A DNA stretch of 64,000 nucleotides. It comes from Alloacidobacterium dinghuense (GTDB taxonomy: Bacteria > Acidobacteriota > Terriglobia > Terriglobales > Acidobacteriaceae). Location of the stretch: NCBI RefSeq assembly GCF_014274465.1, contig NZ_CP060394.1, positions 930,001 to 994,000 on the forward strand, read 5' to 3'. Positions 5,527 to 32,232 of this stretch are shown here, in pieces. The notes beneath the pieces are model-generated. The model had not been told where the DNA came from. It made no database searches and worked only from the letters and a program-made list of their open reading frames with translations. The translations under genes were made by a program, and so were the position numbers. Positions within the stretch are counted from its first letter, which is position 1. Each line of letters opens with the position of its first letter.

Positions 5527-5865
5527 TTATAAGGCTGACGGGCCGCGTTCGTCGTTGCGAATGCGGATGGCTTCGTCGATTTTCGAAATGAAGATTTTGC
5601 CGTCGCCGATCTTGCCGCTGCGTGCCGAGGAAAGAATCGCCTGCACGGCTTTTTCTACTAACTCGTCGGGTACGACCATTTCCAGCTTGATCTTGGGGAG
5701 CAAATCGACGGTGTATTCGCGTCCGCGATAAAATTCGGTGTGGCCTTTCTGGCGACCGTGACCGCGCGCCTCAAGAATCGTCATGCCCTCGATGCCTACT
5801 TCGAGCAGGGCGTCCTTTACCGCATCGAGCTTCGACGGTTGAATCACTGCTTCAATCTTCTGCAT
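5527..5865 (-). CDS. glnB: Nitrogen regulatory protein PII (GlnB/GlnK)
   Basis: A 112-residue trimeric signal protein that reports 2-oxoglutarate, ATP/ADP and glutamine status. The T-loop is intact with GHGRQKGHTEFYRGREYTVDL, including Tyr51, the conserved uridylylation target of GlnD. The C-terminal block GKIGDGKIFI forms the nucleotide-binding region. It starts 41 bp after the amt stop on the same strand, so it is probably the GlnK-type PII that plugs the ammonium channel. The GlnB/GlnK distinction rests on this location only. The uridylylating enzyme glnD follows downstream. Confidence 0.95.
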   Translation of the reverse strand: MQKIEAVIQPSKLDAVKDALLEVGIEGMTILEARGHGRQKGHTEFYRGREYTVDLLPKIKLEMVVPDELVEKAVQAILSSARSGKIGDGKIFISKIDEAIRIRNDERGPSAL

Positions 5866-5906
5866 AGTGTCGTCTCAAGTGTTTCAGGGTAACAGGTTGC
5901 GTCCAG

Positions 5907-7304
5907 TTAAGAGGCGAAATCGTAGCCTTCTTCGCCGTGTTGTGTCACATCGAGACCCTCTATCTCCTGCTCACGCGTGACGCGCAGCCCGACAGTAATA
6001 TCGACCAGTTTCAGCAAGATCACTGTTCCGACGATAGAAATAATCCATGCGAGGGCAATGCCGACGAATTGGTTCAGCACCTGATGCCAGTTGCCGTCCA
6101 CCGCACCGGAAGGGAGCGGGTTGCCATTTGCATCTTTGAAAATCGGGTTGATGGCGCTCGATGCGAAGATGCCGGTGAGGATTGCGCCCAGTGTGCCGCC
6201 TGCTCCGTGAACGCCGAAGGCGTCGAGTGAGTCATCATAGCCGAACCAGTTCTTCACCTTGATGACCATGAAGTAGCAAAAGGCGCCGGCGAGCAGTCCG
6301 ATGATGATGGCGGACATGGGCTGCACGAAGCCAGCTGCGGGAGTGATGGCGACGAGTCCTGCCACGGCTCCGGAGATGCCGCCGAGAGCGCTGGGCTTGC
6401 CGTTGCGAATCCATTCAGCGAGCATCCAGCTGAGGGCCGCTCCGGCCGCTCCGAAATGCGTGTTGACGAAGGCGCTTGTGGCCAGAGTTCCCGAGCTTAA
6501 GGCGCTGCCGGCATTGAATCCGAACCAGCCCACCCAGAGAAGGCAGGCGCCGATGATGCTGAGCACGACAGAGTGGGGCGGCATGGCCTCGCGCGGATAG
6601 CCGACACGCTTGCCGAGATAGAGCGCGCAGATGAGCGCGGAGACACCCGAGGTGACGTGAACTACTGTGCCGCCGGCGAAGTCAAGTGTTGGGAAGCGGC
6701 CGCCGAGCGAGGCGTTGAGCAATCCACCTTTGCCCCACACCATGTGGGCCATAGGCGAGTAAACGCAGATCGACCAGAGAATGAGAAAGAGTGCCATGGC
6801 ACTGAATTTCATGCGTTCGGCGAATGCCCCGGTAATGAGTGCGGGTGTGATGATGGCGAACATCAGCTGATAGACCATGAAGGTCTGGAGCGGCAACGTG
6901 GTGGAGTAGTCGGGATCGGGCGTGAGACCGACGCCCCGCAGGAATATGTGGTGGAGTCCGCCGATGAAGCTGGCGCCGGAATCGAATGCGAGGCTGTAGC
7001 TGACGATCGCCCAGAGCACGGTGATGATGGCCATCATGGCGAAGCTTTGCATCATCGTAGCGAGCACATTCTTTTTGCGGACAAGGCCACCGTAGAAGAG
7101 CGCGAGTCCCGGGCCGGTCATCATAAGGACCAGCGCGGCACTGACAAGCATCCACGCATTGTCTGCTCCGGACTGCGCCGCGGCGACCTGGGCCTGGAGC
7201 TTTGCAATCTGGTCAGCGGTGGAACCTGTTTGCGCAACTGCGGGCGACAGGCTGCCCGTACAAAACACCAATGCCAAAAGCAGCTTCACAATACGAGGGT
7301 GCAT
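5907..7304 (-). CDS. amt: Ammonium transporter AmtB/Amt
   Basis: A 465-residue polytopic inner-membrane channel for ammonium/ammonia. There is an N-terminal signal sequence, a low-complexity linker (AQTGSTADQIAKLQAQVAAAQS), then about eleven hydrophobic segments. The family signature DFAGGTVVHVTSG carries the first pore histidine, and FGVHGAGGTLGAI carries the second. The gene heads an amt-glnB-glnD run on the minus strand. The order amt then PII is reversed relative to E. coli glnK-amtB. No convincing sigma-54 or NtrC site was found upstream. Confidence 0.95.
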   Translation of the reverse strand: MHPRIVKLLLALVFCTGSLSPAVAQTGSTADQIAKLQAQVAAAQSGADNAWMLVSAALVLMMTGPGLALFYGGLVRKKNVLATMMQSFAMMAIITVLWAIVSYSLAFDSGASFIGGLHHIFLRGVGLTPDPDYSTTLPLQTFMVYQLMFAIITPALITGAFAERMKFSAMALFLILWSICVYSPMAHMVWGKGGLLNASLGGRFPTLDFAGGTVVHVTSGVSALICALYLGKRVGYPREAMPPHSVVLSIIGACLLWVGWFGFNAGSALSSGTLATSAFVNTHFGAAGAALSWMLAEWIRNGKPSALGGISGAVAGLVAITPAAGFVQPMSAIIIGLLAGAFCYFMVIKVKNWFGYDDSLDAFGVHGAGGTLGAILTGIFASSAINPIFKDANGNPLPSGAVDGNWHQVLNQFVGIALAWIISIVGTVILLKLVDITVGLRVTREQEIEGLDVTQHGEEGYDFAS

Positions 7305-20565: not shown

Positions 20566-22647
20566 CTAGAGTAGCTGTCTCTCGGCACTTTTCTGTGGCA
20601 AGGAGGCAGGACGGTTTATTCGAAACTTCTGCATCTTGTATACAAACGATGTCCTCTTCATTCCCAGTCGTTCTGCCGCGCCATTGCGGCCACCCACCAC
20701 CCAATTGCTTGCTTCGAGCGCACGGAGGATATGATCTCGTTCTAATTCTTCGAGGCCCGTTATTGGCGCATTGGATACCCTGCGGGCGCTGAACGGTTCC
20801 AATTCTGAAATTGGAGCGCGCAACACCGTGTGAGGAGAAAGAATCACAGCCCGTTCGATAAAATTCTGCAACTCGCGAACGTTTCCAGGCCAACGGTACC
20901 GGACGAGAGCGTCCATCGTCGCTGAAGGGATTTCGTCGATCCCTTTATTCATTCGTCGCGCATACAGTTGTACGAAATGCCGAACCAGCTCCGGAACGTC
21001 TTCAGTGCGCTGCCGTAATGCCGGAACGTGGATCGGAAATACCTTCAGTCGATAATAGAGGTCCTCCCGAAATGTCCCTTGCGCGACCATAGCAGCCAAA
21101 TCGCGATGCGTGGCTGCGATCACGCGAACGTCAACCTTATGCGTGTAGTTGCTCCCTAGTCTTTCGAATTCCTGTTCCTGCAGGACTCGCAGCAATTTCG
21201 CTTGAAGCTCCAGAGGAATGTCGCCAACTTCATCAAGAAAGAGGGTCCCTTTGTTCGCGAGTTCAAAGCGTCCCGTCTTTTGCGCAATTGCTCCCGTGAA
21301 TGCCCCTTTTTCGTGTCCAAATAATTCACTTTCGAGGAGCCCTAGAGGGATCGCGGCGCAATTCAATTTGACAAAGGCTCGTTCCCGGCGACCGCTCAGA
21401 TTGTGAATAGCACGCGCAATAAGCTCTTTACCGGTTCCAGTCTCGCCCATGATCAGCACGCTCGAGCCCGTGGGGGCGACCACGGAGACCAGGTTCAACG
21501 CAGTCTTCAGAGCCGGACTGTCACCCACGATTGCGCCAAACTCTGCGCGGATTTCTTCTTCCAGATAACGTCTTTGTTTCGTCTCTTTGTCTCGGTCCTT
21601 TGTCGCCTTTTCGTACTCCAACGTGTTCTCAACTGCAATCGCTATCTGACGGGCCACTTGCTCAAGCATGATGACGTCGTCTTTCTCAAAAGCATTGTCC
21701 GAACGCCTACAGAGCATCAGAACGCCAACCACGCGATCACGGCCCAGGAGCGGAAGATAGCACCCCACGCTGAGGCCTTCCTCAATCACGCGCTTATAAA
21801 GAAGCTGGCCGTCAGGATTCCCATAAATTTCAGGATCCTCACGGACCTGTTCGAAGCTATCGATCCGAATGCTCTTGCCCTTTCGCAATACCTGACCCGA
21901 GATCGAACTATTCATCGGCACCAACGATCCCTCGCAGATGGGTCCTCTCGCGTCTGGATTGTGCAAGTTAGTGACGCGTAACTCGCCGCTCTCGGAGTCG
22001 GGTAGCAACAAGGCGGACACGTCACACTGCATTATCCTGAATAGATTTGTCGAAAGCACCTCAACCACTTGCCGGAGGTCCAACCTGGATGTCACGCTGC
22101 TTGTGATTTCCAGAAGCAATCGCAGGCGATCACGTTCATACCGCAACTTTTCTTCATTCAGATGGCGTTCAATCGCGATTCCTGCAATGTGGCCGGCATT
22201 CTCGATCAACTGCAGATCGGTAGCGTCAGGGCTACGCGCTTCACGATAATGAATGGCAAAGGTCCCGAGAACTTTACCATCGCTGGTAAACAAGGGCTGC
22301 GACCACACTGCACGAATTCCATACGGCAAGAGCAGATGACGATAATGATCCCAGATGGGGTCATTGAGGATATCGGTTACATAGACTGGCTTCTTTCGAT
22401 AAACGGCTGTGCCGCAGGATCCACCTTTTGGACCAATAAGCATTGACCCCACGTGATCGCTGAATCCAACGAGGCTGGGAGCTGCCGCGCAGTGGAGTTG
22501 CTTTCCGTCATCATCAGGAAGCCAGATGGTGCACAACGTGCCGGCACCTCGAGATTCGACTACTCGGGCGATGATTGTCAGCACTTCTGACAGGGGAGAT
22601 CCAGCAAGAATCAATTTGAGAATGTTAAGTACTGTTTCGTTTTCCAT
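20566..22647 (-). CDS. Sigma-54-dependent activator with two GAF domains
   Basis: A 694-residue enhancer-binding protein. Two GAF sensory domains occupy about 1-165 and 180-345. A short coiled linker ([21 protein letters not shown]) leads to the AAA+ domain. That domain has Walker A GETGTGKE (401-408), the sigma-54-contacting GAFTGA loop (448-453), Walker [12 protein letters not shown] (about 468-478) and an arginine-finger region. A Fis-type helix-turn-helix ends the protein ([23 protein letters not shown]). It should remodel sigma-54 RNA polymerase in response to a GAF ligand or redox signal. The start at ATG 22647 follows AGAAGG; an earlier ATG at 22719 is less likely. Confidence 0.9.
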
Positions 22648-22835
22648 GGTGTGCCTTCTTCTGGGCGGGGTTGGCTCGAAGTTCCGGCAGCTTTCATAAT
22701 AGGCGGTCATAGTTCGCACTGCGATGGAACCTGGCCCTATAGGCCGAACAAACGTAGCGATAGGTTTTGCCTTAGATGGTTCGGAGAACTACTCAGTGGC
22801 ACCGGCCGTGACAGTGCGGAATGCGCATATGTAAG

Positions 22836-22948: not shown

Positions 22949-23130
22949 TAAGTCAGCAACGCAGAAGCAATCCTGTTGATTCATGGTAGTCGGTCACGCA
23001 CCAAGGAGACGCTCTGAGATGTTGGTTGATCGCATGGGTGATACGGCGATACCACTTTCGAGGATTGCCGAGTGCGTTATGATGGTTGGCTGACTGCGGG
23101 GATACGAGAGCAGCGCTCAGTGAGTCAACC

Positions 23131-24621
23131 ATGACGCAAGAAAAGACCTTCTTGTCGCGCATCCCAACTGTGGTGCAACGCTACGGTCTTGCGATTTTGT
23201 CAGTCTGCATTGCACTGGGCCTATCCAATTTTTTGTACTACCGTCATTTCGAGGGAATAGAGTTCCCTCTCTTCCTGCTTGCGGTCGCTGCAACCACCTG
23301 GTATGCAGGTACAGGGCCTTCCGTTCTTTCGCTGGTGCTGGCAAGTTTAGCCTTCAACTATTACTTCACGCCGCCTCTTTACAGCTTCTATGTTTCGGTT
23401 ACTGACATTCCGTACTATGTCATGTTCGTCATCTTTGCCTCATTGATCGCCTGGTTTAGTGCTATCCGCCGGCGTGTTGAGGTCAATCTTTTACGGTCTC
23501 GCGACGAACTTCAAAGGGAAGTGGCAATTCGCACCCAACAGGCTAACCTGCTCAATCTCGCCCATGATCCCATCTTTGTCCGCGATATGAACGGTGTGAT
23601 TACTTATTGGAACCGCGGCGCCGCAGAGTTGTACGGATGGGAGGCCGAACAGGCAATCGGACGACGTACGGACGACCTCTTGCGAACTGTCTTTCCAGGA
23701 CCGCTCGAAGAGGTTCAAGCTGAGTTGTTAGGAACAGGGCGTTGGGAGGGCGAGCTTGAGAAGAAGAAAGCCGATGGAACCGCAGTCTTGGTGGCGAGCC
23801 GATGGTCGTTGCAGCGAGGGGAGCACGAGAGCCCTATAGCGATTCTGCAAAGTGAAAATGACATTACCGAACGCAGGCGGCGCGAGGACGAAATCCGCAG
23901 TCTGAACTCGGAACTGGCGCGGCGCTCCACGGAACTTACGTCTATCAACAAGGAGCTGGAGGCCTTCGCATATTCGGTATCCCATGACTTACGTGCCCCC
24001 CTTCGCCACATGGTCGGCTATACAGAGTTGCTACAAAAGAATGCGTTCACAGCCATGGATGACAAGGGCCGCCGGTATATGACGATGATCCTTGAAGCGG
24101 CGAAGCGAATGGGCGTGCTGATTGATGATCTGTTGTCCTACTCGCGCATCGGACGGGTCGAGACGCGCGAGACAATGGTGAGCCTGGAACAGCTCATAAA
24201 AGAAGTTCAGGCCGAAGTATGGCAGGAAATGGAAGGACGGAACGTGACGTGGAAGGTTGGGCCGCTGCCGGAACTGTATGGGGACAGGTCGATGTTGAAA
24301 CTCGTTTTTGTTAATCTCATCTCCAATGCCATCAAGTTCACCCGTAAATGCTCGCAGCCCGAAATTGAAGTTGGATATACCAACAAGCAGGCGGGCAGGG
24401 TAATCGTGTTTGTCAAAGACAATGGAGTCGGCTTTGACATGAAGTACGTTGACAAATTGTTCGGAGTGTTTCAACGTCTTCATCGGACGGATGAATTTGA
24501 AGGGACCGGGATCGGATTGGCGACAGTTCAGCGTATTATTCATCGTCACGGCGGCCAGGTCTGGGCAGAAGGACAGGTTGGAGCCGGTGCAAGTTTTTAT
24601 CTTTCATTACCAAAGCCGTAG
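23131..24621 (+). CDS. Sensor histidine kinase with DUF4118 membrane domain and PAS
   Basis: A 496-residue kinase. The N-terminus holds about four transmembrane segments of the DUF4118/KdpD type (FLYYRHFEGIEFPLFLLAVAATTWYAG, FNYYFTPPLYSF). A PAS domain follows at about 135-250 with NGVITYWNRGAAELYGWEAEQAIG. The HisKA box has phosphoacceptor His285 in SVSHDLRAPL. The ATPase domain has the N box LISNAIKFT, G1 DNGVGFDM and G2 GTGIGLATVQRI. It phosphorylates a receiver, most likely the CheY-like protein encoded 12 bp downstream. I start at ATG 23131; a TTG at 23086 is less credible. Confidence 0.9.
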   Translation: MTQEKTFLSRIPTVVQRYGLAILSVCIALGLSNFLYYRHFEGIEFPLFLLAVAATTWYAGTGPSVLSLVLASLAFNYYFTPPLYSFYVSVTDIPYYVMFVIFASLIAWFSAIRRRVEVNLLRSRDELQREVAIRTQQANLLNLAHDPIFVRDMNGVITYWNRGAAELYGWEAEQAIGRRTDDLLRTVFPGPLEEVQAELLGTGRWEGELEKKKADGTAVLVASRWSLQRGEHESPIAILQSENDITERRRREDEIRSLNSELARRSTELTSINKELEAFAYSVSHDLRAPLRHMVGYTELLQKNAFTAMDDKGRRYMTMILEAAKRMGVLIDDLLSYSRIGRVETRETMVSLEQLIKEVQAEVWQEMEGRNVTWKVGPLPELYGDRSMLKLVFVNLISNAIKFTRKCSQPEIEVGYTNKQAGRVIVFVKDNGVGFDMKYVDKLFGVFQRLHRTDEFEGTGIGLATVQRIIHRHGGQVWAEGQVGAGASFYLSLPKP

Positions 24622-24633
24622 GAGCAGGAAATC

Positions 24634-25086
24634 ATGACTGACATAGGCCGTATTTTGCTGGTGGAGGACGATCCGAAAGACGTGGAACTCACCATGACTG
24701 CGCTGGAGGAATATAACCTCAGCAATGAAGTAGTGGTTGCAAACGACGGCGAGGAAGCTTTGGATTACCTCTACTACCGGGGAAAATTCCAACGGCGTAG
24801 CGGTGACAATCCCGCGGTTCTGCTACTCGATTTGAAATTGCCAAAGGTTGATGGCCTGGAAGTGCTCGAGAAGATCAAATCGGATGAGAAGTTAAGAATG
24901 ATTCCTGTAGTTGTGCTTACTTCTTCGCGGGAGGAACGCGATATGGTGGCCAGCTACAAACTCGGCGTGAACGCTTATGTTGTAAAGCCGGTAGATTTCC
25001 ATGAGTTTGTGAATGCCATCAAGGAACTTGGCGTGTTTTGGGCGGTCATCAACGAGCCACCGCCCGGAAGCGTTAGAAAGAAATAA
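24634..25086 (+). CDS. Stand-alone receiver (CheY/Rcp1-like response regulator)
   Basis: A 150-residue single REC domain without an output domain. The acidic pocket is EDD near the N-terminus, the phosphoacceptor is Asp66 (LLLDLKLPK), and the conserved Thr/Ser and Lys are in VVLTSSR and VVKPVDF. The Rcp1-type insertion after the third helix ([15 protein letters not shown]) is typical of receivers that serve phytochrome-like or PAS kinases. It probably relays phosphate from the upstream kinase. A GGAGCAGGAAA ribosome site precedes the ATG. Confidence 0.9.
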
Positions 25087-25159: not shown

Positions 25160-26998
25160 TTGCGAATTCTCTATCTTGAAGACGAACCGAAGGACGCTGA
25201 GCTTGTTCAGGCAAGCATGGAAGTCGAAGATATTGTCTGCGACTTGACGCTGGTAGACACTGAAGCCGATTTCTTGCGATCTCTTAAACAGGGGGGTGGA
25301 TTTGATCTTATTCTGGCGGACTACACACTCCCATCGTTCGATGGCATTTCTGCTCTAAAAATTGCGCAGGATATTTGTCCGGACGTTCCATTCATCTTTG
25401 TCTCTGGGACCCTGGTCGAAGAAGTTGGAATCGAGGCCCTTAAGCAGGGTGCAACAGATTATGTTTCTAAGACACGCCTGTCGAGGATTGCGCCCTCGGT
25501 GCGTCGGGCACTGCGTGAAGCAGATGAGCGATCCCAGCGCAAGGTGGCTGAGGAAGCGCTACAACGAAGCGAGGCCTATTTAGCGGAAGCCCAGAGACTC
25601 AGTCATACAGGTAGCTTTAGCTGGAAGGTGTTGAGCGGCGAGATTTATTGGTCCGAGGAGACATTTCGGATCTTCGGATTTGAGCAAGATGTTCGACCTT
25701 CGCTTGAACGAATACTGCAGCAAACTCATCCTGCAGACAGGGAACACCACCGCCTGGTTCTTGAATCTGCGGCCAAGGAAAAGAAGGATTTCGATTTTGA
25801 ACATCGCCTGCTGATGGCTGATGCTTCTGTGAAGCACATCCACGTGGTAGGGCATAGGTCCAAGCAAACCGTATCGGGTGAGCTGGAATTCGTCGGGGCG
25901 GTGACGGACATTACAGAGCGCAAACGAACGGAGGCAGAGCTTCGGAATGCTCTTGATGAAATTGGGAAATTGCAGGAGCGGCTCTACAAAGAAAACATCG
26001 CGCTGCGAGAAGAAATCGATAAGACTTTCATGTTTGAGGAGATCGTGGGTGAGTCGCCAGCGTTGCGCACTGCCCTTGCCCAGGTCTCCAAAGTTGCCCC
26101 CACGGATGCCACCGTCCTGATCACTGGTGAAACCGGCACAGGGAAGGAGCTTTTCGCTCGTGCTATCCACAAACGATCCAAGCGCTCCTCGAGAGCTTTT
26201 GTGAATGTGAACTGTGCGGCGATCCCTACATCTTTGATTGCTTCTGAGTTGTTCGGCCACGAGAAGGGGGCGTTTACCGGGGCTCTGCAACGACGTCTCG
26301 GACGGTTTGAACTCGCTGAAGGTGGCACAATCTTTCTCGATGAAGTTGGCGAACTCCCACTGGAAACCCAGATTACTCTCCTTCGGGTTTTGCAAGAGCG
26401 GGAGTTTGAGCGAGTCGGAGGGACGCAGACAGTTCGTGCAGACGTGCGGGTGATCGCGGCAACCAATCGCAATTTACAGTCGGCTATCGCTTCCGGCGCT
26501 TTCAGGAGTGACCTGTTCTATCGCCTAAACGTATTTCCTTTGCAGATTCCTCCGCTTCGTGAAAGGGAAGAGGATATCCCTTTACTAGTTGAATATTTCA
26601 TCGATCGATATGCGAGAAAGGCAAATAAGAAGATACGGACGATCGAGAAAAGGACGCTGGACCTTCTGCAATCCTATTCCTGGCCGGGTAATATCCGTGA
26701 ACTGCAGAACGTTATCGAGCGGTCGATTGTCCTCTGCGAGACTGATACCTTTTCCATGGAGCAAGGCTGGCTTTGCCCGACATCATCATCCCAACTGGAT
26801 CGGGACCTGCCGAACTACTCCCTTACGAGACATTCAGCGGAGGAGGAGCGGAAAATAATCGAAGCGGCCTTAGCCCAGACCCGAGGCCGAATCTCCGGTC
26901 CTGATGGGGCTGCGGCTCAGCTTGGAATGCCTGCTTCCACCCTGGAATCGAAAATCCGAGCTCTGAAAATCAACAAACATCAGTTCAAAACTGCCTGA
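25160..26998 (+). CDS. Sigma-54 activator with REC and PAS domains
   Basis: A 612-residue protein with an unusual order: REC (1-115, phosphoacceptor Asp54), PAS (about 140-255), coiled linker, AAA+ domain and a C-terminal Fis-like helix-turn-helix. The AAA+ domain carries Walker A GETGTGKE (323-330), GAFTGA (370-375) and GGTIFLDEVGELP. REC plus PAS in one enhancer-binding protein suggests it integrates phosphorylation from the upstream kinase with a second signal. The start is TTG at 25160, giving the standard REC opening MRILYLEDEPKDAEL. It is third in a kinase-receiver-activator run. A sigma-54 promoter lies about 100 bp after its stop. Confidence 0.9.
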   Translation: MRILYLEDEPKDAELVQASMEVEDIVCDLTLVDTEADFLRSLKQGGGFDLILADYTLPSFDGISALKIAQDICPDVPFIFVSGTLVEEVGIEALKQGATDYVSKTRLSRIAPSVRRALREADERSQRKVAEEALQRSEAYLAEAQRLSHTGSFSWKVLSGEIYWSEETFRIFGFEQDVRPSLERILQQTHPADREHHRLVLESAAKEKKDFDFEHRLLMADASVKHIHVVGHRSKQTVSGELEFVGAVTDITERKRTEAELRNALDEIGKLQERLYKENIALREEIDKTFMFEEIVGESPALRTALAQVSKVAPTDATVLITGETGTGKELFARAIHKRSKRSSRAFVNVNCAAIPTSLIASELFGHEKGAFTGALQRRLGRFELAEGGTIFLDEVGELPLETQITLLRVLQEREFERVGGTQTVRADVRVIAATNRNLQSAIASGAFRSDLFYRLNVFPLQIPPLREREEDIPLLVEYFIDRYARKANKKIRTIEKRTLDLLQSYSWPGNIRELQNVIERSIVLCETDTFSMEQGWLCPTSSSQLDRDLPNYSLTRHSAEEERKIIEAALAQTRGRISGPDGAAAQLGMPASTLESKIRALKINKHQFKTA

Positions 26999-27034
26999 AC
27001 GCCCCCGTCTAACACTGGTCGCAAATTCACAAAC

Positions 27035-27050
27035 TTCGCGAATTCGCGAA
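27035..27050. promoter_or_regulatory. Upstream activator palindrome (candidate enhancer site)
   Basis: TTCGCGAATTCGCGAA is a perfect 16-bp palindrome. Its centre lies about 85-90 bp before the predicted sigma-54 start site, in the usual range for enhancer-binding proteins. A related half site TTCGTGA follows directly. It is the natural candidate site for one of the two neighbouring activators. Confidence 0.65.
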
Positions 27051-27102
27051 CTTCGTGACCGTGTCGTTACGTGCAACATACCTATTTTCAAATAATTAGA
27101 TC

Positions 27103-27118
27103 TGGCATCAAGATTGCT
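27103..27118 (+). promoter_or_regulatory. Sigma-54 (RpoN) promoter for the STAS-ATPase genes
   Basis: TGGCATCAAGATTGCT. The GG and GC elements have the required 12-bp offset, and both TGGCA and TTGCT match the sigma-54 consensus. Transcription should start near 27129, 16 nt before the STAS gene start. Confidence 0.8.
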
Positions 27119-27144
27119 TGAATTAAGTCGAGTTTTGGAGAGTC

Positions 27145-27417
27145 ATGCTGAAAATTCAGCGGTCATCGAACGGTGGCGTTGTGTTCGCACTAATTGGTCA
27201 GGTCGAGATCGAGCACGTGGCTGAGTTACAGCGACTCTTCAGTCTTGAAGACGCTAAAGATCGCATTGCTCTAGACCTGAAAGACGTGACCCTGGTTGAT
27301 CGCAGCGCGGTGAAGTTTCTATCAGAGTGTGAAGCAGACAGCATAACGCTTAAGAGTTGCCCACCGTACATACGTGAGTGGATTGACCAAGAGAAGAAAA
27401 AAAGTACCCAAGAGTGA
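27145..27417 (+). CDS. STAS-domain (anti-sigma-factor-antagonist-like) protein
   Basis: A 90-residue single-domain protein with the STAS pattern: an opening strand (LKIQRSSNGGVVFALIGQVEIEHVAELQRLF), a strand-helix segment DRIALDLKDVTLVDRSAVKFLSECE, and a short charged tail. The Ser in VDRSAVKF occupies the position phosphorylated in SpoIIAA-like proteins. STAS proteins usually act in partner switching with kinase-like ATPases, and such an ATPase is encoded next. It is the first gene after the sigma-54 promoter. Confidence 0.7.
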   Translation: MLKIQRSSNGGVVFALIGQVEIEHVAELQRLFSLEDAKDRIALDLKDVTLVDRSAVKFLSECEADSITLKSCPPYIREWIDQEKKKSTQE

Positions 27418-27428
27418 GGAGCAATATC

Positions 27429-27965
27429 ATGCATTTCGAAGACGCATGCCAAGTTGATACAGAGTCGGCTTCTGGTTTTCAGGAAGATTTCAGTCAGGCC
27501 AAGGGAACCTCGAACCAGATTCGCACTACCGACGATTTGGGAACAGCATTCTCACGCATCGGGCAAGAGATACAAGTGGGATCTCAGGTTCGGTTTCGGA
27601 TCGTATTGGAAGGGCGGACACGCCCCCTGCATCCAGTGGTCTATGATCACGCCTACACGATCGGACGCGAGGCTCTGCTCAATGCATTCCGTCACTCTGA
27701 GGCGACACGTGTTGACCTTCACCTTGAGCACACGCCGGCCAGGCTATGCATGACCATTCGGGACAATGGGAGGGGCATATCGGGTGACCAGCTGTGCACG
27801 GGTTGCAATGGTCTTTCCTGGATAAAAAATCTCGCGGAACGAATGGGTGGAAGACTCAAGTTGCTCAGCCGCGCTAAGGCTGGAACTGAAGTCCTATTAT
27901 CAATACCCGGTCACTTAGCCTTTGCCGCAGAGATAACGGTTCGTCGGAAATTGGCGGCTGCCTGA
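27429..27965 (+). CDS. Kinase-like ATPase (HATPase_c) without a phosphoacceptor domain
   Basis: A 178-residue protein. The C-terminal 120 residues form a GHKL ATPase domain: N box HAYTIGREALLNAFRHSEA, G1 IRDNGRGI and a late G-rich AGTEVLLSIPGH. The first 60 residues carry no HisKA or HisKA_3 histidine box. The domain closely resembles the end of the giant kinase encoded convergently next door (YSIGREALVNAFRHAQA, IRDDGRGI, AGTEVELNIPGNIAF). It could be an anti-sigma-like switch kinase paired with the STAS protein or a detached kinase module. The start at ATG 27429 follows GAGGAG. Confidence 0.75.
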   Translation: MHFEDACQVDTESASGFQEDFSQAKGTSNQIRTTDDLGTAFSRIGQEIQVGSQVRFRIVLEGRTRPLHPVVYDHAYTIGREALLNAFRHSEATRVDLHLEHTPARLCMTIRDNGRGISGDQLCTGCNGLSWIKNLAERMGGRLKLLSRAKAGTEVLLSIPGHLAFAAEITVRRKLAAA

Positions 27966-28031: not shown

Positions 28032-31000
28032 TTATGATTCGCGATTCCGGAGGAAACGGCTGACGCCGTTGAGCCATTTGCGCGGGGCGCGTGGATTTTC
28101 TTCAAAGGCAATGTTGCCAGGAATGTTGAGTTCTACCTCCGTTCCAGCGTCATGGCGGCTCATGACCTTGAATTTCGCGCCAATCCTCCCTGCTCGTTCC
28201 CGCATGCCTACCAGGCCCCAGTGCCCGTCGCGCCCTGCGCCGACAACTTTAGGGTCGATTCCACGGCCATCATCACGGATTACCATTCGCAAGTGATCCG
28301 CGGAGTAATCGAGCAGTACCTCAATTTTCCTGGCCTGAGCATGCCGGAAGGCGTTTACTAAGGCCTCCCGGCCAATGCTGTAAACGTCGTCACGGATGAC
28401 GGACCGCAACGGGATCGATCGTCCATCTACGGCCACATGAAAATCAACCCCATCTTGTATACCCAGCTGCTGCGGAATGAGTGAAAGGGAAGTGCTGAGA
28501 TCACGCGGGTTGTCGATGGACGATCGCAGTCCGCGAACCGCGCCGCGGCCTTCTTCGATGAGAGGTCCCATCAATTGCATAATCCGGCTCATTGTCGTCC
28601 GTGCAGGTGACTCCTGCGGCAATTGATCCATTGCCACATGAAGTTGCATCGAGACACTGAGCAGGCCTTGCAGAAGGGTGTCATGTAAATCCTGAGCGAT
28701 GCGTGTTCGTTCAGCTAGTCGCTCTTCATAGCGCACATTGAACAGCCGCGCTAACTGGCGCATCCGCAGCGAGTACACCAGTAACGCTGCCAGCCCTGAG
28801 CAGAGTACACAGGACAATCGAAACCACCATCTTTCCCAAATGGTCGGCTCAATTTCGAAACCGACCGTCATATCCGAGCCATTCCAGAGGCCGTCGCTGT
28901 TGGAAGCCATCACGTGAAATCGGTATGGATGTGCGCCGAGATTGCCGTACGTTGCTTCCCGATTCGTGGTTGGTTCACTCCATCCGTGATCGAAACCTTC
29001 GAGCCAGTAGCGATACCGGACTCGTTCAGAATTGGCCAAACTCAGTCCTACATATCGAAATGTCGCTCTCTGCGTGTTAGGCGGAAAGCGTATGTTTCCT
29101 CCGGTGTCGATCGGATTGCCATCCGCAAAAATTGCCTCGATATGGACGAGAGCCGGAGCGGAATCGACACTCGCGCGTGCAGGGTTCGCCACAGAAATAC
29201 CGCGGTTTGTAGACAGCCAAATATTTCCTTGCGGATCTGTGGCAATCGACCTGCTTCGCTTTACGCCTTCCGTGCCCAACAATCCATCTTCTAGTCCATA
29301 TCCCCGGACGTCTGTTTTGTTCAGAGTAGCTTGTATCAGACTGCTGCGTTTGACTCGCAACACGTGACTGGCAGTTGTTATCCAAAGCCATCCGTTTCTA
29401 TCTTCTGCCATTCCGAATACGGGCTCTTGCAGAGATTCTGGAACGCCTCGAGGCACCTTGATTTGATCGCCAGCAAGGAAGGCGAGGCCGGCGGCGGTTC
29501 CGATCCACAAGACGTCATTCGAATCACGTAGGAGACAGTTCACATCTGAAGAAGGCAAACCGTCGTGATCCGTGTAGGTCTTCCAGCCTGCGGCTGTCTT
29601 AGCACTGAGTCCCTTCGGCGTGCCAAACCACATTGTTCCTTCGCCGCCCTCTTCAATCGAGGACACCGTGTCGGATGCCAAACCGTTCGCAACTGTATAG
29701 GTCGTGAAATGTCCGTCCCGTAATTCGCTAACGCCGCCACTTAGCGTTCCTGACCATATTGTGCCGTCCTGATTCTCATGCACGGCATAGACGCTGTCTT
29801 GAGCAAGGCCATCCGCCTTCGTATAGGTTTTCGTAGATAACGAACCATGGTTATAGAGAAGATGCGTTAGTCCGCCTCGCTGTCGACCAATCCACAAGTC
29901 GCCCTTCCGGCCTGCGAGGGAATAGACTACATCCTTACTCAAGCCCTCGTTGGACACACTTTCGGTCTTTCCATCCTTCAGCCAGTGCAGTCCGCCTTCG
30001 AAGGGGGCAAACCATGTCCGTCCTTCTTGGTCGACGTAGATGGGGCCAGCACCCGCTGACTGTTTTTCCCCTACCGAATAACTAACGAATGCGCTGTCGC
30101 GCAGACGCTCAATGTCGCCTGATCTTCCTACCCAGAGGTTCCCCTCTCTATCTTCAAACAAGGCGGTAACTGGCGCGTCGATCCCGCGGCCATCTTTGTA
30201 CCGCGAAACTTCATCTCCGTTGACTCGGAATAGTCCTTCCGAGGTCCCCAGCCAGATGTTTGCGTCACGATCGCGGATCATGGCGAATACCGTGGAGTGA
30301 CGGATTGAGGAGGGAACTCCGGTCTGCGTGAGGTTCGCCCCATTCGACTGGAAAACACCTTTCTCGGTTCCGATCCACAACTCCCCATTCTCCAAAGGCA
30401 ACAAGCAGGTAATCTTGGGGCTGAGCCGTTCACTCCCTACGGCCGAAACCTGGCCGCCGCGCATAGTGAACAGTCCCTTATCCTGCGTCCCCAGCCAGAT
30501 CTGCCCATCTGCATTTTCAGCGATAGATATGACCGCGGAGTTAGGTTGTGTCACATGATGAGTAGCGAGACTGGTAGCCCAACTGAAACGGCTGGAAAGT
30601 TCGTCCCCCGGAGGGATAGTGTTGGTCGCTAAAGGCGCCTGCTTTGGGGTTGGTGACCGAACGATCTCGAATCTTCCGTCGTATGAGAGCGGGCCGTAGG
30701 TTAGCGACGAGAGTAAAACTGAGCCATTCTGCTTCTTGCCGATAGCGGTGATTCCATATTCGGCCTGGTCCCGGCCCAACTCAAACTTTCCGTCATGGAG
30801 CCGCAACACTCTGGTGCTTTGCAGCAAGACCCACAGATCTCCCGCAGCGTCCGTTACGAGTCCCTGAACCGAGCCAATAGGAAACGACTCTGGTGTCGCT
30901 TGCTGGAATACGCGAAAGTTAAGGCCATCGAAGCGAATCAGGCCCTTATCTGTGCCGATCCAAAGATAACCATCACGAGTTTGCGCAATCGCAGATATCT

Positions 31001-31181
31001 TCCCGCCGGGGAAGTCTCTCTTTTCCCCCCACTCGTCGTGAGAGTACTGCGAGATCGTCCGGTGCGGATCCAGTGCGTGTGCCGGCGTACCAGCACACAA
31101 CACGAGGAGTGTGGCGATGGCCCACCCAAAGAGCCTATGCTTGCCAAGGCGAACATCACGGTAGGTACTCGAACTTTTCAA
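28032..31181 (-). CDS. Giant sensor kinase with periplasmic two-component propeller
   Basis: A 1049-residue one-component-architecture kinase. After a signal/anchor (GKHRLFGWAIATLLVLCAG) come about a dozen Reg_prop repeats of the type GYLWIGTDKGLIRFDG, forming two seven-bladed propellers. A Y_Y_Y Ig-like domain follows (RYRYWLEGFDHGWSEP), then one transmembrane helix, a HisKA_3 box with His in RIAQDLHDTLLQG, and a NarL-type ATPase domain. Such proteins sense extracellular sugars in glycan-degrading bacteria. No LuxR-type response regulator is adjacent. The start is uncertain: TTG 31181 keeps overlap with the upstream GH16 gene at 26 bp; ATG 31232 and 31301 are alternatives. Confidence 0.85.
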   Translation of the reverse strand: MKSSSTYRDVRLGKHRLFGWAIATLLVLCAGTPAHALDPHRTISQYSHDEWGEKRDFPGGKISAIAQTRDGYLWIGTDKGLIRFDGLNFRVFQQATPESFPIGSVQGLVTDAAGDLWVLLQSTRVLRLHDGKFELGRDQAEYGITAIGKKQNGSVLLSSLTYGPLSYDGRFEIVRSPTPKQAPLATNTIPPGDELSSRFSWATSLATHHVTQPNSAVISIAENADGQIWLGTQDKGLFTMRGGQVSAVGSERLSPKITCLLPLENGELWIGTEKGVFQSNGANLTQTGVPSSIRHSTVFAMIRDRDANIWLGTSEGLFRVNGDEVSRYKDGRGIDAPVTALFEDREGNLWVGRSGDIERLRDSAFVSYSVGEKQSAGAGPIYVDQEGRTWFAPFEGGLHWLKDGKTESVSNEGLSKDVVYSLAGRKGDLWIGRQRGGLTHLLYNHGSLSTKTYTKADGLAQDSVYAVHENQDGTIWSGTLSGGVSELRDGHFTTYTVANGLASDTVSSIEEGGEGTMWFGTPKGLSAKTAAGWKTYTDHDGLPSSDVNCLLRDSNDVLWIGTAAGLAFLAGDQIKVPRGVPESLQEPVFGMAEDRNGWLWITTASHVLRVKRSSLIQATLNKTDVRGYGLEDGLLGTEGVKRSRSIATDPQGNIWLSTNRGISVANPARASVDSAPALVHIEAIFADGNPIDTGGNIRFPPNTQRATFRYVGLSLANSERVRYRYWLEGFDHGWSEPTTNREATYGNLGAHPYRFHVMASNSDGLWNGSDMTVGFEIEPTIWERWWFRLSCVLCSGLAALLVYSLRMRQLARLFNVRYEERLAERTRIAQDLHDTLLQGLLSVSMQLHVAMDQLPQESPARTTMSRIMQLMGPLIEEGRGAVRGLRSSIDNPRDLSTSLSLIPQQLGIQDGVDFHVAVDGRSIPLRSVIRDDVYSIGREALVNAFRHAQARKIEVLLDYSADHLRMVIRDDGRGIDPKVVGAGRDGHWGLVGMRERAGRIGAKFKVMSRHDAGTEVELNIPGNIAFEENPRAPRKWLNGVSRFLRNRES

Positions 31182-32232
31182 TGACGAGCTCACTGCCTTT
31201 TTCGGCCGGATACTTATCGCTTGCAACCACATACAGCATAAACTCAAGCAACTCCTGGCCGGGAGAAGGAACTCCGGATGTAAAGACATGCTCGTATACA
31301 ACAGGCGCCGATGCTTGCGTGGAAGAACCGCGAACCGTCTTGAAGCTCGCCCGCCCAGGTTCCCACAGCAGCGTATGAGTCAATGTTCCCGAAGGGGCGG
31401 TAAATTGCGCTACATTTCCAGGCACATAAAAAGGCTGGATGCCATACTGGGCGTTGTACTTGCTCGTTGCATCACCCCAACGACCGAGTTCAATATCCAT
31501 TTCGCGGTAATGCTGGTCTCCTCCTGAGGGATCGAAAGTGTGCATACTCATGACGGCGGCGGTTTCCAAGTGGGACGTATCGCGTACTACGAAGCGGTAC
31601 GTTCCATAGCCCAGACTGCGCGTCAGAATAAGGTGTGCGCAGGTCCATTTGCCGGATTTCTTCATAATCCGCAGATGCAGGGCCCCTTGTGCATCAGACC
31701 AAACGTTATCGGCGTCATACAGATTGTTCAGGCCGCCTCTGACCGCCTGAGACGTTTGAATGTTCCAGTCGTATCCGCTGAAGTGGAGCGGCACGGTCGG
31801 CAATAGTGCCAGGGAGCCGATGCCCTTGACGATCTTTACCAGGGCCACAGAACCACCTTGGATGGGCTGCAGGTCCAGAGTTGGCGATGGATGATAGCCG
31901 GGATCCACCAACAGCGCGGCATACTCAAATCCGAGATGAGTTTCGGTGCTCCAAGTTGAGTCCGATTGAATTGGGATAAAGGGATGGTCAGGCCACGGTT
32001 GAACCCACCACGGTCCGCTGTGTGCATAGATGACGATCTGCTGTCCCGGACGCGCGCCACTGACGCGGCCCGCAATGGTATCGACTCTTTCACGGCCACC
32101 TTGAGCCGCAGGCGGAATCTTGGAGAACTCAATCGCAGGCCCAGTCTCAACTTGGCGCGATGGGCAACCAGTCAGCACAATGCAGATCGCAAGGAGTGCC
32201 TCGGTCGACACCACCCAACGTCTTTGATTCAT
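31156..32232 (-). CDS. GH16-like lipoprotein (beta-glucanase fold)
   Basis: A 358-residue lipoprotein with lipobox LTGC (Cys23). A beta-rich N-terminal domain precedes a concanavalin-A-like fold of the GH16 type. The catalytic pattern E-x-D-x-E is visible as Glu244, Asp246 and Glu248 in YREMDIELGRWGD. GH16 enzymes cut beta-1,3/1,4-glucans, galactans or related polysaccharides; the substrate is not assigned. The start ATG 32232 follows GGGAGGGC. It overlaps the downstream propeller kinase, so polysaccharide cleavage and sensing are likely coexpressed. Confidence 0.75.
   Translation of the reverse strand: MNQRRWVVSTEALLAICIVLTGCPSRQVETGPAIEFSKIPPAAQGGRERVDTIAGRVSGARPGQQIVIYAHSGPWWVQPWPDHPFIPIQSDSTWSTETHLGFEYAALLVDPGYHPSPTLDLQPIQGGSVALVKIVKGIGSLALLPTVPLHFSGYDWNIQTSQAVRGGLNNLYDADNVWSDAQGALHLRIMKKSGKWTCAHLILTRSLGYGTYRFVVRDTSHLETAAVMSMHTFDPSGGDQHYREMDIELGRWGDATSKYNAQYGIQPFYVPGNVAQFTAPSGTLTHTLLWEPGRASFKTVRGSSTQASAPVVYEHVFTSGVPSPGQELLEFMLYVVASDKYPAEKGSELVIEKFEYLP

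Follow-up and report, generated by a model that had tools for sequence, protein, structure and literature searches.

Local circuits in which a sigma-54-dependent activator controls the gene next to its own are exemplified by the PspF-pspA phage-shock system, in which the first target lies beside the activator gene and the product of the target inhibits the activator, PspF itself being devoid of receiver (REC) and PAS domains. A wider view of such regulators is available for Desulfovibrio vulgaris, for which the published map shows NtrC-type (group I) activators with sites that precede sigma-54 promoters and are mostly palindromic (PMC3333781). For a different class of regulators, the LacI family, a recognition code has been derived from local regulation, with neighbouring operators and residues of the recognition helix found to covary (PMC2978694).

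The locus considered here belongs to the 6.27 Mb, single-contig genome of the soil bacterium Alloacidobacterium dinghuense (Acidobacteriaceae) and was analysed within a stretch of 64,000 nucleotides (the window, positions 930001-994000 of NZ_CP060394.1), to which the coordinates refer unless otherwise stated. On the plus strand, a sensor histidine kinase with a DUF4118-PAS-HisKA-HATPase arrangement (23086-24621) is followed by a single-domain response regulator (Response_reg, 24634-25086) and by a sigma-54 activator (25160-26998), all assigned with Pfam. After an intergenic gap of 146 bp (26999-27144) come the gene of a small STAS-like protein, the first of the unit (27145-27417), and that of a protein for which Pfam reports only a HATPase domain (27414-27965), the GTG start of which overlaps the STAS stop. 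A second local activator, with a GAF-GAF-AAA-HTH organization, is encoded on the minus strand at 20566-22719. Convergent to the HATPase gene, the minus strand also carries at 28032-31301 a two-component regulator propeller protein with Y_Y_Y, HisKA_3 and HATPase domains, and the catalytic ends of these two proteins are similar. Judging from the sequence, the gap 26999-27144 is very probably the control region of a local, and probably one-target, sigma-54 circuit run by the adjacent activator.

The adjacent activator, the proposed reader of the operator, combines an N-terminal receiver domain (Response_reg, residues 3-105 according to Pfam), a PAS domain, a Sigma54_activat AAA domain with the GAFTGA motif present in the translation, and a Fis-type helix-turn-helix for which the HTH_8 match is above its cut-off; it thus has the features of NtrC-type enhancer-binding proteins of group I. 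The six residues of the recognition helix that are of interest for the covariation with the operator (592-597, ASTLES) are encoded at 26933-26950 on the plus strand. From its position, the sensor kinase at 23086-24621 is a possible phosphorylator of this activator. One match to RpoN (Sigma54_DBD) was found in the genome. A sequence search for relatives of the helix-turn-helix in the PDB returned one ribosomal chance match only.

The preliminary description of this DNA had placed in the gap a perfect 16-bp palindrome and a sigma-54 element with exact -24/-12 spacing, about 100 bp after a sigma-54 activator gene, and direct reading bears this out. The palindrome, TTCGCGAATTCGCGAA (27035-27050), is the core of the putative operator (upstream activator site) and of a longer array that comprises four half-sites, TTCACAAAC-TTCGCGAA-TTCGCGAAC-TTCGTGAC (27026-27059), tandem arrays being found also in other modules. 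The promoter element TGGCATCAAGATTGCT (27103-27118, plus strand), which recurs at the same place elsewhere, lies 104 bases from the stop of the activator frame, has GG and GC the standard distance apart (10 bases between), and differs from TGGCAC-N5-TTGC at one of the 10 fixed positions (T for C at the sixth). The centre of the palindrome is 60 bp upstream of the -24 GG. If the standard sigma-54 geometry is assumed to apply, transcription would start at approximately 27128 (plus strand), about 12 bases past the -12 GC, so that the palindrome would be centred at about -85, the same distance as initially proposed.

The promoter type itself is ordinary and well known, and either motif, taken singly, is about as frequent as chance would predict in 64 kb. 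The promoter pattern has 71 matches in the window at up to two mismatches (67.5 in shuffles) and seven at up to one, while simple arithmetic predicts about one perfect 16-bp palindrome per 64 kb (64000/4^8), corresponding to about 0.002 per 146-bp gap. Both motifs stand above chance because they recur at the same place in other modules. The exact TTCGCGAATTCGCGAA is present as a single copy in the 6.27-Mb genome, and nine places are found at up to two mismatches, versus four for the reversed-pattern control. No sigma-70-like promoter was found in the gap, nor was a terminator-like site, the sole call within 26900-27300 being at 27162-27177, inside the STAS gene.

The recurrence was established starting from the focal STAS protein. 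Seven additional matches to it lie within the genome that encodes it, and 13 of the other 99 genomes also gave matches; at an E value of 1e-6, STAS matches are present in 63 of 399 genomes of the class, its own included. A first collection, formed by 80 fetched stretches plus the window, yielded 84 STAS matches (with one locus, L110, counted twice), and in 63 of them the same strand carries a sigma-54 activator gene at an upstream distance below 1.5 kb. The remaining 21 comprise 12 with no activator in the stretch, seven with an activator downstream or on the other strand, and two with an activator further upstream; nine of these 21 have a sigma-54 core of up to 2.5 mismatches within 250 bp. 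The gaps were analysed for 62 of the 63 rows, the duplicate L110 entry, which has no start codon, being dropped, and were compared with 200 dinucleotide shuffles. A core with at most 0.5, 1.5, 2.5 and 3.5 mismatches was detected in 4, 21, 44 and 57 of the 62 gaps, respectively, versus shuffle means of 0.02, 0.24, 1.8 and 6.5 (largest values, 1, 2, 6 and 12), with 18 gaps missing the 2.5-mismatch mark. In the 56 regions upstream of the cores, the best inverted repeat had eight of eight positions paired in 21 cases, seven of eight in 21 and six of eight in 14, the corresponding values in shuffles being 0.86, 12.8 and 35.9. In a scan that reached 120 bp, the centres of all 21 full (8+8) palindromes fell 49-70 bp upstream of the -24 GG, with distances gathering near 50, 59 and 68 bp, to be compared with the 60 bp of the focal site.

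A second collection, made of named records on contigs partly shared with the first and evaluated without a shuffle control, has an upstream activator at 51 of 79 STAS loci, and a core of up to 2.5 mismatches in 36 of these 51; of its 16 full palindromes, 15 fall at 49-70 bp and that of L213 at 92.5 bp. The records include some labelled as Phycisphaerales (L233, L239) and Verrucomicrobia (L178, L223, L245). Among those labelled as Rokuibacteriota, L213 belongs to the set and L183 has no core, and the Gemmatimonadetes-labelled L242 has a weak palindrome. As a separate observation, the same sigma-54 site and palindrome are found in the gaps of Verrucomicrobia- and Deltaproteobacteria-labelled MAGs (L178/L185 and L223/L224, the latter pair with near-identical activators), which reflects either a binning error or a recent transfer.

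Within the genome of A. dinghuense, 22 of 23 activator loci were resolved (L044 was not). Six of them are associated with a STAS gene, and all six activators have a P-x-x-T-L-E/D helix; the other 16 show neither this helix nor a STAS gene, although in two of them (L046 and L047) no helix-turn-helix was visible in the tail that was read. A repeat of at least seven pairs at 49-70 bp is present in only three of the six STAS modules, and the promoters of two modules are weak (L147, four mismatches; L149, three). Among the 16 non-STAS activator loci, a sigma-54-like match of up to 2.5 mismatches within 260 bp was found in four and a repeat of at least seven pairs at 49-70 bp in none. In the three genomes of the same genus that were searched, no clear orthologue of the focal module was detected, the lone STAS match (L011/L123) being accompanied by a different helix, so that phylogenetic footprinting relies on paralogues and on relatives at a greater distance.

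Two features of other STAS loci of this genome may be recorded here. Near 3.672 Mb (L146), a 37-bp perfect inverted repeat, formed by two tandem copies of TCCGTCAATTGACGGA, precedes a sigma-54 site upstream of the STAS gene at 5757-6017 (minus strand, L146 numbering). The stretch at genome positions 3668031-3668129 (L027), 14 kb from the STAS paralogue at 3682391-3682639 (L019), encodes the C-terminal sequence of this paralogue without any difference. It closes a frame that, judged by eye, resembles the end of a kinase, and represents a partial duplication.

The relation between operators and activators was analysed on 75 distinct modules, kept from the 114 rows of the two collections (63+51) after removal of repeats, of rows with no sigma-54 match within four mismatches and of those with too little upstream sequence; the helix was readable in 72 of them (L087, L135 and L150 were dropped). 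Across the 75 modules, the type of operator and the helix of the activator beside it tend to vary together: ASTLE goes with TTCGCGAA, RSTLE often with GGCGAA, PSTLD and ASTLD with TTCACGAA/TTCGTGAA, RATLE with TTGCTCA...TGAGCAA, and ARTLD and TRTLD with TCCTnA...TCAGGA. Module pairs in which the helix triplet is identical have 6.4 six-mers in common versus 2.35 in 2000 label permutations (maximum, 3.1), and the pairs with less than 65% identity in the AAA domain have 3.9 versus 1.87 (maximum, 2.8). Counts for the single helix classes are post hoc, the k-mers having been chosen after seeing the module table: TCGCGA is found in all five A-S-E modules, the focal helix type, versus none of 67 others, CGTGAA in 8/9 versus 1/63, GAGCAA in 3/3 versus 0/69, CAGGAA in 4/5 versus 1/67, and GCCGAA in 13 of 20 R-S-D and R-Q-E modules versus 4 of 52. 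Weaker associations were obtained, on the same post hoc basis, for GGCGAA (6/11 R-S-E modules versus 3/61), GCTGAA (6/11 versus 3/61) and TCCGAA (2/3 versus 3/69); for the R-T-E class GACGAA and GACG were not significant among the 72 modules, and several helix classes fit poorly.

An unselected, identity-stratified scan of 219 variable columns of the activators ranked residue 592 first and residues 597, 593 and 596 at positions 5, 8 and 15, with a top statistic of 1.17; in 200 permutations, which remove shared descent incompletely, the 95% point was 1.07 and the maximum 1.28. Columns 416, 403 and 459, outside the helix, rank second to fourth, so that some shared descent remains in the scan. 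In a tree of the activators calculated without the helix-turn-helix, no fewer than four label changes are required to account for the five A-S-E modules, which therefore do not form one clade; their helix may nevertheless be inherited rather than independently gained, three of the five being in one supported set. In LuxO, six of 11 critical residues are in the third helix of the helix-turn-helix (PMC11407668), and the critical residues could be matched by eye to residues 593-599 of the focal activator. Insulation of the modules within genomes was also considered as evidence and rejected, given that the absence of a shared helix triplet in 25 within-genome pairs (52 of the 72 modules having a genome assignment) compares with about two such pairs expected and has a chance of about 0.11.

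The palindrome had been proposed to be the target of one of the two local activators, and the covariation of the operators with the helix of the adjacent REC-PAS activator, together with gene linkage, favours this adjacent activator as the probable reader. The GAF-GAF-AAA-HTH protein is also equipped with a GAFTGA motif and is encoded 4.3 kb away. However, its recognition helix is of a class different from the ASTLES type, and across the modules the type of operator follows the helix of the adjacent activator, so that its action at the palindrome is very improbable. The palindrome might also work at the RNA level, as a hairpin or terminator of the activator gene, with the STAS gene transcribed by read-through, and its 16 bases can indeed form a stem of 6 bp capped by an AATT loop. 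The absence of a T run behind it and of terminator-like sites in the gap, the lack of any excess folding of the gap (z = -0.26, with 78 of 200 shuffles folding equally well or better), the clustered distances to the sigma-54 element and the covariation with a DNA-reading helix, which would not be expected of an RNA structure, make this reading extremely improbable. As to both motifs being chance matches, which the frequency of each in 64 kb might suggest, their recurrence at the same place far above the shuffles, and again in the second, partly overlapping collection, renders it hardly credible. The comparative evidence, namely recurrence, spacing and helix-linked operators, thus favours a promoter of the sigma-54 type preceded by an activator site, in line with the preliminary description.

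A broader role of the activator, which would act also on distant genes in a circuit that is then not private, can be evaluated from the search for further targets in the genome. Eight places other than the focal one resemble TTCGCGAATTCGCGAA at up to two mismatches, but only one of them is followed, at a distance of 25-120 bp, by a sigma-54-like match, which lies inside a 495-codon open frame that by eye resembles one for a phosphate-binding protein. The combination of the half-site with a loose promoter pattern identifies nine genome places besides the focal one, including one near 4.256 Mb (L254) that ends in TTGC and has two mismatches to the consensus. At each of the nine, however, a single TTCGCGAA is found where the focal site has two within about 40 bp, and open frames of at least 168 codons overlie the place, whereas none longer than 90 codons overlies the focal site. 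No convincing second target emerged among these eight near-copies and nine joint-pattern places of the genome, in a search that may overlook degenerate sites and in which open frames are not equivalent to gene calls, and action on distant genes appears unlikely.

Returning to the local circuit run by the adjacent activator, its mode of action may be outlined starting from the sites, the gene order, the recurrence and the covariation, which are read from the DNA, with phosphorylation, binding, RpoN dependence and start point as the steps inferred from them. The receiver domain of the REC-PAS-AAA activator would most likely be phosphorylated, and the ASTLES helix would bind the TTCGCGAA half-sites, whose centre is at about -85 relative to the start. 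The bound activator would then contact the RNA polymerase-sigma-54 complex waiting at TGGCATCAAGATTGCT and open the promoter, so that the STAS gene would be switched on together with the HATPase gene that overlaps it.

The properties of the STAS-like protein are less easily translated into a function. Its match to STAS_2 (E = 0.00059) is below the curated cut-off, and SpoIIAA-like profiles (1sbo/TM1442, 1tid, 1th8 and 1auz) are matched at E values of 0.003-0.005. In the alignment of 43 of the 62 STAS proteins, no member has Ser at the position aligned with what we take to be the phosphorylated serine of SpoIIAA, and two, the focal protein included, have Ser one position on. Partner switching of the SpoIIAA kind was therefore rejected.

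The other components of the modules vary. All 47 activators that were aligned out of 61 (after exclusion of close duplicates and of frames that were cut or very long) have the AAA domain, with HTH_8 reaching the cut-off used in 32, and differ in their sensory parts (PAS_3 in 44, GAF_2 in 17, a receiver in nine). The next gene, defined as the longest open frame starting near the STAS stop and not as a gene call, was aligned in 49 of 54 cases and matches HATPase_c in 10, a further sigma-54 activator in eight, sigma-70 region 2 (ECF-like) in five, alpha/beta hydrolases in four and short-chain dehydrogenases in three. A HATPase protein as the constant partner of STAS was thus rejected, as only 10 of the 49 next genes match HATPase_c, and the presence of a second sigma-54 activator or an ECF-like sigma factor after STAS suggests cascades. 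In these modules, which were picked by having a STAS match, STAS is the constant part of the cassette and the rest varies.

The HATPase protein of the focal locus (27414-27965) resembles the catalytic end of NarX/NarQ-type kinases. HATPase_c was matched, but neither HisKA nor HisKA_3 was, so that of the features of a histidine kinase the ATPase domain is present and the phospho-accepting His region was not detected. In its relatives L158 and L097, the translations show RIAQELHDT and RIARELHDT, respectively, in the phospho-accepting region, which the focal translation does not show. When the post-STAS HATPase proteins were compared (the focal one, L086, L088, L163, L164, L099, L097 and L158), they looked like remnants of NarX-type kinases, with the His-box seemingly lost in the focal and the Edaphobacter proteins and kept in L158 and L097.

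For the STAS protein, the preferred reading is that of a feedback partner of the activator, as a candidate role. A more general and more tentative proposal, which we regard as possible rather than probable, is that the cassette may be a self-contained plug-in switch, in which STAS would be the dedicated feedback partner of the activator, as a sigma-54 counterpart of partner switching, and residues 592, 593, 596 and 597 would set operator choice, thereby separating the switches present in one cell. The genome of A. dinghuense has six modules with six different helix triplets.

What goes beyond the known kind of promoter is the recurring cassette with the covariation of helix and operator. In the 72 natural modules a putative operator is found beside the gene of its putative reader, providing a data set on the DNA choice of Fis-type helices and a basis for predicting the targets of uncharacterized sigma-54 activators. 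Among the modules are near-minimal natural pairs, TTCGCGAA being associated with A-S-x-x-E helices and TTCACGAA/TTCGTGAA with A-S-x-x-D helices. The cassette also places a small STAS-like protein family in a regulatory setting. A literature search found no paper on Acidobacteria with sigma-54 and the STAS domain, and the literature matches listed contain no description of a recurrent activator-operator-STAS cassette or of a small STAS-like family in such a setting. The STAS passages of the one listed work that covers both the STAS domain and sigma-54, a study of conflict systems (PMC7159879), are unrelated, and the main texts of a 2025 comparison of sigma-54 regulons (PMC12316311) and of PMC3162934 contain neither 'Acidobacteri' nor 'STAS'.

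By analogy with PspF-pspA, the first target of the focal activator adjoins the activator gene, but the STAS protein is unrelated to PspA, the activator has REC and PAS domains, and feedback is here hypothetical. The STAS domain has a weak profile similarity with anti-sigma factor antagonists of the SpoIIAA type, from which it differs at the aligned phospho-serine position, not Ser in any of the 43 members. As for the group I activators of D. vulgaris, a palindromic site is found upstream of a sigma-54 promoter; in the present case, by contrast with those of that map (PMC3333781), a STAS family repeatedly follows the activator and the operators of many paralogous modules diverge together with the helix. 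The logic is the same as that of the LacI-family study (PMC2978694), applied here to another regulator family, that of the sigma-54 activators.
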